A program made the translations under genes and the position numbers. This document shows positions 6,216 to 8,937 of a stretch of 24,189 nt of DNA, piece after piece; the first letter of the stretch is position 1; each line of letters starts with the position of its first letter. The notes under the pieces were generated by a model that saw only the letters and a program-made list of their open reading frames with translations, ran no database searches and had not been told where the DNA came from. The stretch is taken from IMG/VR virus record IMGVR_UViG_3300031951_001176, positions 1-24,189 of that record; one strand, written 5' to 3'. Origin of the DNA: a virus.

Positions 6216-6400
6216 TTTCTTCCTGAATATACCTGACCAAAATCAGCGTAATTATGCTTCTTATAAGCATCATCACAAAAGTCTCTGACTGCTTCAAGTC
6301 TCTGAAGCAATACTAGTTTCTCATTTGTAGAAATACTTTTTTCTTTCAGTCGTGCGACAATATCCTGAATGTTAACAGGAACTAAATGTTCATTCTTCAT
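6212..6400 (-). CDS. Hypothetical 62-aa protein between gp55 and gp47
   Basis: This small soluble, mostly helical protein has a Leu-rich heptad-like stretch (about residues 15-40, VARLKEK to LQRLEAV) and an acidic/aromatic C-terminus (NYADFGQVYSGRK). I do not recognise the family. The ATG at 6400 lies inside the end of gp55 (11-base overlap) with GAGG 6 bases upstream. Its stop overlaps the gp47 start as ATGA. Conserved coupling to the nuclease genes suggests a replication/recombination or transcription accessory, but that is inference. Confidence 0.7.
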   Translation of the reverse strand: MKNEHLVPVNIQDIVARLKEKSISTNEKLVLLQRLEAVRDFCDDAYKKHNYADFGQVYSGRK

Positions 6401-6926
6401 TTTTTTCCTCTTTTATAAATTTATCAAGTGCTGTGATTTTAACAGGCTTTTTTGGTTTTGTCAACTTTTCTTCAAATGATTTTACTATCTCCGCTGAATA
6501 TTCATTTGATTTCAGTTGTGTAGCATGTGTTACTTCTTCATACCTGTCCAAAAGAAAAGTATTTTCATAGTTTTTATGTTTTATGTATGTCTGTTTCTTT
6601 TCTTTATGAATACGTCTGACAAAGGCATTCCATGCTATCTGTGTAAAATAGGCAAATGGATTGTTCGTCTTGTCTGGATCAAAATTGTCAACGGCGGCTA
6701 TACAGTCCATGATGCCGTCATTGATCATATCTTCTTTATAGGTATATCCTGAGAAGTTTGGCTTCTTGGCCAAGTTATTACAAATCAAAATAATAGCCTC
6801 ACCAATATACTGCGGAACTATTGGCTTGTCAACCTTTTTCTTGATGGATTCATGTAGATCTGTTCTATAATGAATAATAACACCATATAGTGTCTTATTG
6901 TTCACATAATTTCTTTTTTTAATCAT
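6390..6926 (-). CDS. 55: gp55 late-transcription sigma-like factor
   Basis: This is the T4-type sigma factor that directs host RNA polymerase to TATAAATA late promoters. I use the Met at 6926 (178 aa) because GGAG lies 6 bases before it, whereas the ATG at 6938 has no ribosome site. The start MIKKRNYVNNKTL aligns with the YNYVNNKEL region of T4 gp55. Conserved blocks are NFSGYTYKEDMINDGI (57-72) and the sigma region 2-like NPFAYFTQIAWNAFVRRI (89-106). Near the C-terminus, ALDKFIKEE (166-174) sits where T4 gp55 carries its sliding-clamp-binding hydrophobic motif. The perfect late boxes elsewhere in the window are its expected targets. The co-activator gp33 and clamp gp45 are not in this window. 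Confidence 0.93.
   Translation of the reverse strand: MIKKRNYVNNKTLYGVIIHYRTDLHESIKKKVDKPIVPQYIGEAIILICNNLAKKPNFSGYTYKEDMINDGIMDCIAAVDNFDPDKTNNPFAYFTQIAWNAFVRRIHKEKKQTYIKHKNYENTFLLDRYEEVTHATQLKSNEYSAEIVKSFEEKLTKPKKPVKITALDKFIKEEKNEE
6436..6464 (-). promoter_or_regulatory. Possible internal sigma-70 promoter for the 62aa-47-46 unit
   Basis: Inside the 3' end of gp55 the minus strand has TTGACA (6464-6459), a 17-base spacer ending TGT, and TAAAAT (6441-6436). This is a consensus -35 with an extended -10 that has one mismatch. It would start RNA near 6429, just upstream of the 62-aa gene. The same TGn element is found at the stronger uvsY promoter. Confidence 0.4.
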
Positions 6927-6952
6927 ATTCTTCTCCATTACGAATTTTTAAC

Positions 6953-6980
6953 TTGACAGAATTTCTAATAGTGGTATAAT
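6953..6980 (+). promoter_or_regulatory. Consensus sigma-70 promoter pointing antisense to uvsW
   Basis: The plus strand carries TTGACA (6953-6958), a 16-base spacer ending TGG, and TATAAT (6975-6980), so -35, -10 and extended -10 are all consensus. It lies in the only non-coding gap between gp55 and uvsW (6927-7001) and points right, opposite to every gene here. The predicted RNA starts near 6987 and becomes antisense to the uvsW 3' end after 15 bases. The first plus-strand ORF in it has eight codons (from 6993). I see no nearby plus-strand terminator. Confidence 0.6.
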
Positions 6981-7001
6981 ACTGTTGTGGGAATGAAGAT
7001 A

Positions 7002-8453
7002 CTATTTAATATTCAGTGATACTTTGTATATTTTATAATCAAACTTCTCTTCATTGTATATCTTAACTCTCTCCATAAAGTGTTGTAATGTATAGTTCTT
7101 TCTTCCTTTCCAAGAAAGGTCATCAGCTATATCGTAAAGGGTAGCAGAAGTTTTTGTATCAGACTTACGTAGTCCACGACCAATTGATTGGAGGTTCCGT
7201 ACACGAGACTTGCTTGGGCTAGCAAAAATAATATTATGGAGATTCTTAATATTGATTCCGGTACTAAAAGTACCAAAAGAAGCGACAATAATAGCATTAG
7301 ATTCATTCTCAACTACCTTTCTTATTTCTTCTCTTTTATTACCAGATATATCTCCAGATACGAAATGTACAGACCTATCATTGTTTCCTAATATGTTTGC
7401 TAGATACATACCTTGTTTCTCTACAAATTGATAGAGAATTAAAGTATTACCCTCAAGAGACAATGCCAGATTTTTAATAAATATATTTCTTTGTGGTAAT
7501 GTTACAATATAATCCAATTCTGATTGATAATTATTAGATTTAGCAATCATCTTTTTGATATGATCAGGATAAGATAATACCAACGCTTTAATATAAAAGC
7601 CAGATAGATGTTTTTTATCTATAAGTTCTTTTGTTGTTGTTACTTTTCTTACTGGTCCGAAGAGTCCTTCAAGAACGAGCTTGTGGGTTTCAGTACCATC
7701 CAATGTTCCGGTAAATCCAAAACGGTAGCGGCATCCGGATAGTTTAGTAAGTATAGAAGTAAGAGATTTTGCTTTGAAGAGATGAGCTTCGTCTCCGATG
7801 ACAACATCAAATGAATCAAAGAATTCTTTAGGTAACTTGTATATGCTTTGCCAAGTGGTAATGGTGATTGGTTTGTCTGTTCCCTTATCCTGTCCAGCGA
7901 ACACACGATGAACAAAGCGATCGGATTCAAAACCGTAATCAGCAAAATCACTGGCAAGCTGACTAACCAAAGAAGTAGTTGGTACGATAATAAGAGTGCG
8001 TTTCGCATAATACCTCACAAGTAGATAGATAATAAATGATTTACCAGAGGCTGTGGGAGAAAGGAGCATTGCCCGTCTTTCCCTCACAGCATGAGCGAAT
8101 GCATCCAACTGATAATCTCTTGGTTGCATCGTAGGTTTTATATTTAGAATAAATTCTTTTGCTTCTTTTAATGAAAATTCTTCTAATGAAAAATCTGAAA
8201 GATATTCTAATTCATAATCTCTTGATTTGCAAAATTCTTCAATATATTTCAATAGACCAGCATAGAGCAAACCAGTCATAGGATTAAGCAATCTTATTTT
8301 ACCATCCCATACTTTGTTCTTGTATGCAGGCATGAATTTAGCGCCTGGAACAGTAAACGTAAAATATTCACTTAATTCCATCATTATACTAGGTTCAGAA
8401 CTTATTTTATTATAAACCTCATTATATTTTTCAACTTGAATTATTTCTTTCAT
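7002..8453 (-). CDS. uvsW: UvsW RNA-DNA/recombination helicase (SF2)
   Basis: This SF2 helicase unwinds R-loops and branched recombination intermediates in T4. I use the Met at 8453 (483 aa), whose ATG overlaps the uvsY stop as TGATG, rather than the one nine codons upstream, because MKEIIQVEK begins where T4 UvsW begins. The N-terminal DNA-binding domain includes NKVWDGKIRLLN (46-57), matching a T4 segment. Helicase motifs are I SPTASGKS (132-139), II DEAH (221-224), III FTGT (247-250), and VI QSIGRGLRK (422-430); FGTFSTGINIKNL (393-405) is motif V. Transcription probably starts at the uvsY promoter. A perfect promoter on the other strand faces the 3' end of this gene. Confidence 0.95.
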   Translation of the reverse strand: MKEIIQVEKYNEVYNKISSEPSIMMELSEYFTFTVPGAKFMPAYKNKVWDGKIRLLNPMTGLLYAGLLKYIEEFCKSRDYELEYLSDFSLEEFSLKEAKEFILNIKPTMQPRDYQLDAFAHAVRERRAMLLSPTASGKSFIIYLLVRYYAKRTLIIVPTTSLVSQLASDFADYGFESDRFVHRVFAGQDKGTDKPITITTWQSIYKLPKEFFDSFDVVIGDEAHLFKAKSLTSILTKLSGCRYRFGFTGTLDGTETHKLVLEGLFGPVRKVTTTKELIDKKHLSGFYIKALVLSYPDHIKKMIAKSNNYQSELDYIVTLPQRNIFIKNLALSLEGNTLILYQFVEKQGMYLANILGNNDRSVHFVSGDISGNKREEIRKVVENESNAIIVASFGTFSTGINIKNLHNIIFASPSKSRVRNLQSIGRGLRKSDTKTSATLYDIADDLSWKGRKNYTLQHFMERVKIYNEEKFDYKIYKVSLNIK

Positions 8454-8884
8454 CAACCCCCCATTGTGAATTTCTGCCATTCAATAGCATTTCTCACATC
8501 AAACCCTCTATTATGTATAACTTTTAAAATATCCATCAAAAGATCAACTTTTTCTTGCTGTTCACTGATACACAAGTTCATATTGATAATATCTTCGTCA
8601 GCATCCATATACATTGAAACTTCTGATTTTATTATAATTTTTCTTAGAGGCTTCCATCCTTTTTGAATATGTTCTTCGGAGGCACCTTGAGTGAAATACT
8701 CATACTTTTCAAACTTTAGACTTCTTAATTGAGAATCAAGTTTTTTAAGTTTAAGTCTTTCTTTTATTAATATTTCGTAATATTTGTGATGAAGTTTGGC
8801 TTTCTTTATAGATTCATCACCTAATTCAGTTTTATCAATTACACCATCAATTTTCCACTGAGAAAGTATCTCTTCAATATCCAT
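8453..8884 (-). CDS. uvsY: UvsY recombination mediator
   Basis: This protein loads UvsX recombinase on gp32-coated single-stranded DNA in T4 and is about the length of T4 UvsY (137 aa). The Met at 8884 (143 aa, MDIEEILSQW) is chosen because GGAG lies 6 bases upstream; the ATG at 8896 would leave only a few bases of leader from the predicted RNA start. Recognisable segments are the basic coiled region (about 40-70), FTQGASEE, a stretch with DADEDII, and the C-terminal hexamerisation helix LLMDILKVIHNRGFDVRNAI. Its stop and the UvsW start share one base, so mediator and helicase are co-translated. Confidence 0.93.
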   Translation of the reverse strand: MDIEEILSQWKIDGVIDKTELGDESIKKAKLHHKYYEILIKERLKLKKLDSQLRSLKFEKYEYFTQGASEEHIQKGWKPLRKIIIKSEVSMYMDADEDIINMNLCISEQQEKVDLLMDILKVIHNRGFDVRNAIEWQKFTMGG

Positions 8885-8908
8885 ATTTCTCTCCATATTA
8901 AACGATTA

Positions 8909-8937
8909 ATTATATCACGAATTTAAATAATTGTCAA
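8909..8937 (-). promoter_or_regulatory. Early sigma-70 promoter of uvsY-uvsW
   Basis: The minus strand has TTGACA (8937-8932), a 17-base spacer ending TGA, and TATAAT (8914-8909): consensus -35, spacing, extended -10 and -10. RNA should start near 8902, giving a leader of about 18 bases to the ATG at 8884. It fills the 56-base gap between the tube-like gene and uvsY and gives recombination genes early expression independent of the late structural block. Confidence 0.85.

Follow-up and report, generated by a model that had tools for sequence, protein, structure and literature searches.

A conserved, predicted sigma-70 promoter pointing backward into the gene that precedes the late sigma factor in T4-like aquatic phages

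In many T4-like phages of aquatic bacteria, a strong host-type promoter that points backward is retained behind the gene preceding that of the late sigma factor. We describe this element starting from a viral DNA stretch of 24,189 nucleotides (hereafter the window), in which it lies between uvsW and gene 55 (gp55) and faces uvsW, and follow it through related gp55 loci. Beyond what the initial annotation of the window had recognised, we find that the element is widespread, that its distance from the end of the upstream gene is fixed, and that it usually carries a palindrome at its predicted start site. The adjoining gene is that of the late sigma factor, which acts as the switch in T4-like development. 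Retention of a backward promoter there in many lineages of abundant aquatic phages suggests that their timing regularly involves antisense transcription, which would then be more than noise. Our preferred reading, in which we place about even confidence, is that this is a functional, conserved sigma-70 promoter firing from behind uvsW into its 3' end, and that it acts by transcription interference at the boundary of the uvsY-uvsW unit.

The promoter and its neighbours in the window

The element at 6953-6980 on the plus strand (TTGACA GAATTTCTAATAGTGG TATAAT; Table 1) agrees with the sigma-70 consensus at 12/12 positions, with TGG directly before TATAAT and a 16-bp spacer that falls within the 16-18 bp of such promoters, so the perfect promoter facing uvsW that had been described in this gap is indeed there. 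It is oriented into the opposite strand of uvsW and has no gene of its own, which is the arrangement of a cis-antisense promoter. Its sequence predicts an antisense RNA that would enter uvsW at its 3' end, with a predicted start near 6987 as counted from the -10. The other full match that had been reported, before uvsY, is also present (8937-8909, minus strand). Together these make 2 sites for TTGACA-N14..19-TATAAT in the 24 kb of the window, against a mean of 0.07 in dinucleotide shuffles, and two sites were reached in 0 of 100 shuffles. Window-wide, promoter-like sites are as frequent as in shuffles.

By PHROG profiles, uvsY, uvsW, gp55 and the gp47/gp46 genes (SbcD/SbcC-like) that follow gp55 all lie on the minus strand. 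The gap between uvsW and gp55 exists between two minus-strand genes as annotated, but its 63-bp size rests on the less likely gp55 start: the second ATG, at 6926, is likelier than that at 6938, as a GGAG ribosome site and homologous N termini fit it. The second in-frame ATG of uvsY (8884), which has a GGAG-type ribosome site, is probably the true start rather than 8896. The best sense promoter for gp55 in the window reaches 9/12 only. Elsewhere in the window, a strong intrinsic-terminator-like hairpin (GGGGGGCAGAAATGCTCCCC, with seven T) was observed at 9515-9496 on the minus strand, between the genes for the major head protein and the tail tube.

Table 1. Coordinates of the antisense promoter and neighbouring features in the window.
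Feature	Position	Strand	Remarks
gene 55, late sigma factor	6390..6938	-	phrog_234, E 5e-50; likely true start 6926
uvsW-gp55 gap, promoter inside	6939..7001	.	63 bp by ORF caller; from 6927 with second-ATG gp55 start
-35 hexamer TTGACA, antisense promoter	6953..6958	+	direct reading and pattern search; relatives TTGACT/TTTACT/TTGACA
16-bp spacer, GAATTTCTAATAGTGG, TGG at end	6959..6974	+	extended -10 TG at 6972-6973
-10 hexamer TATAAT	6975..6980	+	same in all 26 clade sequences
post-(-10) region, ACTGTTGTGG	6981..6990	+	no good dyad; palindrome there in relatives, e.g. CACATATGTG
uvsW helicase	7002..8480	-	phrog_16, E 3e-109; predicted antisense RNA enters 3' end
uvsY, overlaps uvsW start	8453..8896	-	PHROG match; likely true start 8884
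second perfect sigma-70 promoter, TTGACA-17-TATAAT, TGA	8909..8937	-	sense, precedes uvsY; for uvsY-uvsW

Conservation and distribution across gp55 loci

Loci were taken from viral contigs, anchored on gp55 and uvsW. In the window's clade on the gp55 tree the gene order is unchanged, with the backward promoter likewise behind uvsW, and 25 of 26 members carry it at the same place, the sole exception (L005) having a 587-base interval there. Across 24 clade sequences, pairwise identity is 100% in the -10 and 80% in the -35, against 34% in the spacer and 36% in the bases 15-40 downstream, figures that are partly a matter of ascertainment as the rows of the motif table were picked by promoter score, a bias from which the 25/26 count is free. 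The spacer measures 16 or 17 in all clade rows while its sequence is not conserved. The promoter thus outlasts its surroundings and probably does a job. Relatives retain both hexamers and their orientation with a drifting spacer, which is the outcome of the comparison that the initial annotation had proposed; the extended -10 that it had named is real in the window, but the TG is not conserved in relatives. Most members of the clade have no gp55 sense promoter of similar quality.

For the wider survey, 220 gp55 loci were dereplicated at 85% identity to 127 representatives, 83 of which have a gap of at least 45 bases. Of these 83, 26 have a best backward score of 12/12, 24 one of 11 and 18 one of 10, so that scores of 11 or 12/12 occur in 50/83 gapped representatives compared with 6/193 other gaps of the same loci; a score of 11 was reached in 0.6% of shuffles. 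The promoter is not a chance match. A wider scan of all 127 loci yielded 76 carriers, 43 loci without a gap able to hold the promoter and 8 gapped non-carriers, with carriers on both sides of the midpoint root of the gp55 tree, itself a weakly supported root. Nine sampled cultured Kyanoviridae are carriers at 10-12/12 (including Syn10, S-RIM8, S-PM2, S-RIM2, S-SZBM1 and P-SSM4), as is Syn9, which is the same as Syn10 at this site. In Syn9 the -10 occupies 123,705-123,710 on the minus strand, which puts the predicted antisense start near 123,698. P-TIM40 has no antisense promoter before gp55, Melnitz has only a weak match, and the four T4-type Straboviridae tested, in which other genes precede gp55, have none there. 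Lineages without a gap survive without the element, which points to a role in fine tuning and not in an essential step.

Position behind the upstream gene and the start-site palindrome

Across the 76 carriers, the predicted start lies a median of 16 nt past the upstream stop codon (IQR 13-22). The upstream gene is uvsW-sized in 36 of them and small in 40, with similar start distances, whereas the distance to gp55 varies from 28 to 190; it is thus the 3' end of the preceding gene, and not gp55, to which the element is anchored. A sense promoter belonging to gp55 itself stands back to back with the antisense one in Kyanoviridae and many others, and the -35 elements of the two overlap in Syn9/Syn10, S-RIM2 and P-SSM4.

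Immediately downstream of the -10, inverted repeats whose arms are 3 or longer occur in 81% of 73 backward promoters, compared with 18% (sd 4) in shuffles, and those with arms of 4 or longer in 48% compared with 5%. The arms are lineage-specific (CACATATGTG, CCTTATAAGG, AGCATTTATGCT and AAGGTTATCAACCTT), and the window's own ACTGTTGTGG forms no good dyad. As hairpins in the sense RNA of relatives, the palindromes are weak (mean MFE -1.0 kcal/mol). One genome, G005, has four such promoters with four different palindromes; a single sequence-specific operator for all sites was rejected on the ground that palindromes differ inside one genome. The start-site motif was also rejected as a general cyanophage early motif, with 1-3 copies each in 8/10 records and none in 2. 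When the window-clade motif was searched as one fixed pattern a single site was returned, a search too narrow because palindrome length varies. Promoter plus AACnnTGTnnGGGTT motif occurs at Syn9 52764 (L252), S-RIM8 41953 (L253), S-RIM2 48347 (L256) and 13313 (L255), and S-PM2 153216 (L254), with motifs of the AACnnTGTnnGGGTT type similar within each phage. The genes that follow are gp88, a conserved small gene whose homologues (PHROG 718, function unknown) have the combination before them in sense orientation in Syn9, S-RIM8 and S-RIM2, together with S-RIM2 cpeT and the T4-GC 49 gene of S-PM2.

Further copies lie behind other genes. In 13 genomes or contigs, 17 gap promoters scoring at least 11/12 are aimed into a gene's 3' end, at a median distance of 16, and the gp55 site makes up about half of them. 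Apart from the gp55 site, three copies occur in G005, at fibre-like and exonuclease genes; in G006 one follows a fibre-like gene, and in G001 one follows a small gene of unknown function. A dyad accompanies 13/17 of these 3'-end-facing promoters, compared with 10/47 sense promoters and 16/78 inside ORFs. At G005 180366 (L299), where two genes converge, a backward promoter aimed into the 3' end of the exonuclease gene was observed together with CCCTTTAAGGG, an almost perfect palindrome. It is conceivable, if doubtful, that all these sites belong to one class of antisense promoters at 3' ends: strong sigma-70 elements about 16 nt behind stops, in which a sequence-independent start-site palindrome (about -6 to +8) slows promoter escape, perhaps via a hairpin in the strand that is opened. 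Polymerase parked in this way would then be a conditional terminator until the takeover by the late sigma factor removes it.

Candidate functions and known systems

No opposite-strand ORF of at least 40 aa starts at the promoter in the carrier representatives, neither a conserved backward ORF nor a conserved intrinsic terminator for the antisense transcript was found among relatives, the antisense region has no match in Rfam, and synonymous conservation in the last 60 uvsW codons is above background neither in carriers nor relative to non-carriers. These results point to transcription as such, or to pairing alone, and less to a sequence-specific product, and the small regulatory RNA that had been suggested is accordingly not favoured. 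Further upstream in uvsW, at about codons 60-100 counted back from the 3' end, synonymous conservation is extreme in L077, L085-L122, L007, L013 and L020 over roughly 110 nt (GGAACTTTCTCCACAGGTGTTAACATT ... CATAACATTATATTTGCTAGTCCTTCAAAATCC), with an excess of identical codons of 0.31-0.36 compared with about 0.1 elsewhere; this stretch may be a target of homing or recombination, or may conceal another element.

Most likely, the element's job is to hold back traffic between two transcription units, and among the functions proposed earlier, limiting uvsW or gp55 read-through fits best. We infer the activity, timing and interference of the promoter as follows. During early and middle infection, while host sigma-70 polymerase is in use, polymerase would load at the antisense promoter and collide with, or occlude, polymerase descending uvsY-uvsW, which would lower read-through and set a boundary between uvsY-uvsW and the gp55-47-46 unit without requiring any particular sequence or product of the antisense transcript. 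With polymerase diverted by gp55 to late promoters, the block would fade and read-through would rise, so that the two units would be apart early and joined later. Premature UvsW would undo R-loop origins in T4, which makes a brake on UvsW plausible. That the window retains the antisense arm without a good gp55 sense promoter supports interference. Against it, gp55 in Kyanoviridae and others has a sense promoter of its own and so need not depend on read-through there; lineages with abutting genes, the four Straboviridae and P-TIM40 manage without the element; and no early/late logic is obvious for the copies that G005 and G006 carry at fibre-like and exonuclease genes. Interference also does not account for the start-site palindrome, which the window itself lacks.

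A rival reading is a regulated cis-antisense RNA that pairs with the mRNA 3' end of uvsW (or of the small gene) and alters its stability, the palindrome being a regulator's operator. The excess of palindromes at antisense promoters (81% compared with 18% in shuffles) argues for such an RNA, as does the recurrence in Kyanoviridae of promoter and motif, similar per phage, before the Syn9 gp88 homologues, S-RIM2 cpeT and S-PM2 GC49. However, G005's four promoters with four palindromes are hard to reconcile with one regulator and the window has no good dyad, and we consider this account unlikely. T4 has a replication origin at the uvsY promoter, and the element adjoins uvsY-uvsW, so its transcript might prime leading-strand synthesis as at T4 ori(uvsY), with UvsW later removing the R-loop; similar elements at the ends of fibre genes, and the element's attachment to the 3' end of a gene instead of to uvsY, make an R-loop origin improbable. 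A strong promoter with no gene behind it could also begin a trans-acting small RNA or small peptide gene, which the lack of a conserved ORF or terminator, of an Rfam match and of synonymous constraint in the overlapped uvsW end renders quite improbable.

Two further readings deny the promoter a role. The conserved bases might act on the sense strand, as a gp55 ribosome site or in uvsW mRNA processing or termination, with the promoter likeness incidental: the clade -35 often touches the gp55 ribosome site (AAGTCAAGG), and the palindrome would be a hairpin in sense RNA. Those hairpins are weak, as given above, 12/12 promoter matches are common, and the distance to gp55 ranges over 28-190 while promoter spacing holds at 16-17; we consider action on the sense strand highly improbable. 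A chance match, or a pervasive spurious promoter of an AT-rich genome, is scarcely credible: the DNA is AT-rich and promoter-like sites overall occur at the shuffled rate, but the element is conserved across deep gp55 lineages, and both the 2 sites against 0.07 expected and the 50/83 against 6/193 control gaps speak against accident. The preferred reading, interference by a functional promoter, makes the gp55 site a concrete place for studying convergent-polymerase interference in a phage.

Cyanophage middle promoters are reportedly host-like. The gp55-site element shares their host-type consensus, but those promoters drive genes, whereas it faces a gene's end. Our literature search, to which the Syn9 transcriptome (Doron 2016) was external, found no report of an antisense site before gp55. 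In the accounts cited here, the T4-like cyanophage S-PM2 makes an antisense RNA of unknown function, CfrI, at the 3' side of psbA (Millard 2010; PMC2984593, PMC5931967). The likeness lies in antisense orientation at a gene's 3' side in T4-like cyanophages; the difference is that CfrI is a single case, at another locus, shown by experiment, whereas the gp55 element is predicted and recurs in many lineages. According to PMC4503421, the PeSL (promoter early stem-loop) cassettes that T4-like phages carry (Arbiol 2010, Comeau 2014) place a strong sigma-70 promoter and an inverted repeat in intergenic gaps. The gp55 site resembles them in having such a promoter beside an inverted repeat in a gap, and the window's gap contains the promoter. 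Unlike in PeSL cassettes, the promoter points against the genes, and the repeat straddles the predicted start, has no T tract, folds weakly as RNA and is not a terminator; the stem-loop terminator of PeSL has no counterpart in the window, whose gap holds no terminator-like site or dyad, and hairpins are weak in its relatives. Divergent sigma-70 promoter pairs, finally, describe the gp55 site of Kyanoviridae, whereas the window's sense arm reaches only the 9/12 noted above, and its clade keeps the antisense arm only, driving no gene.
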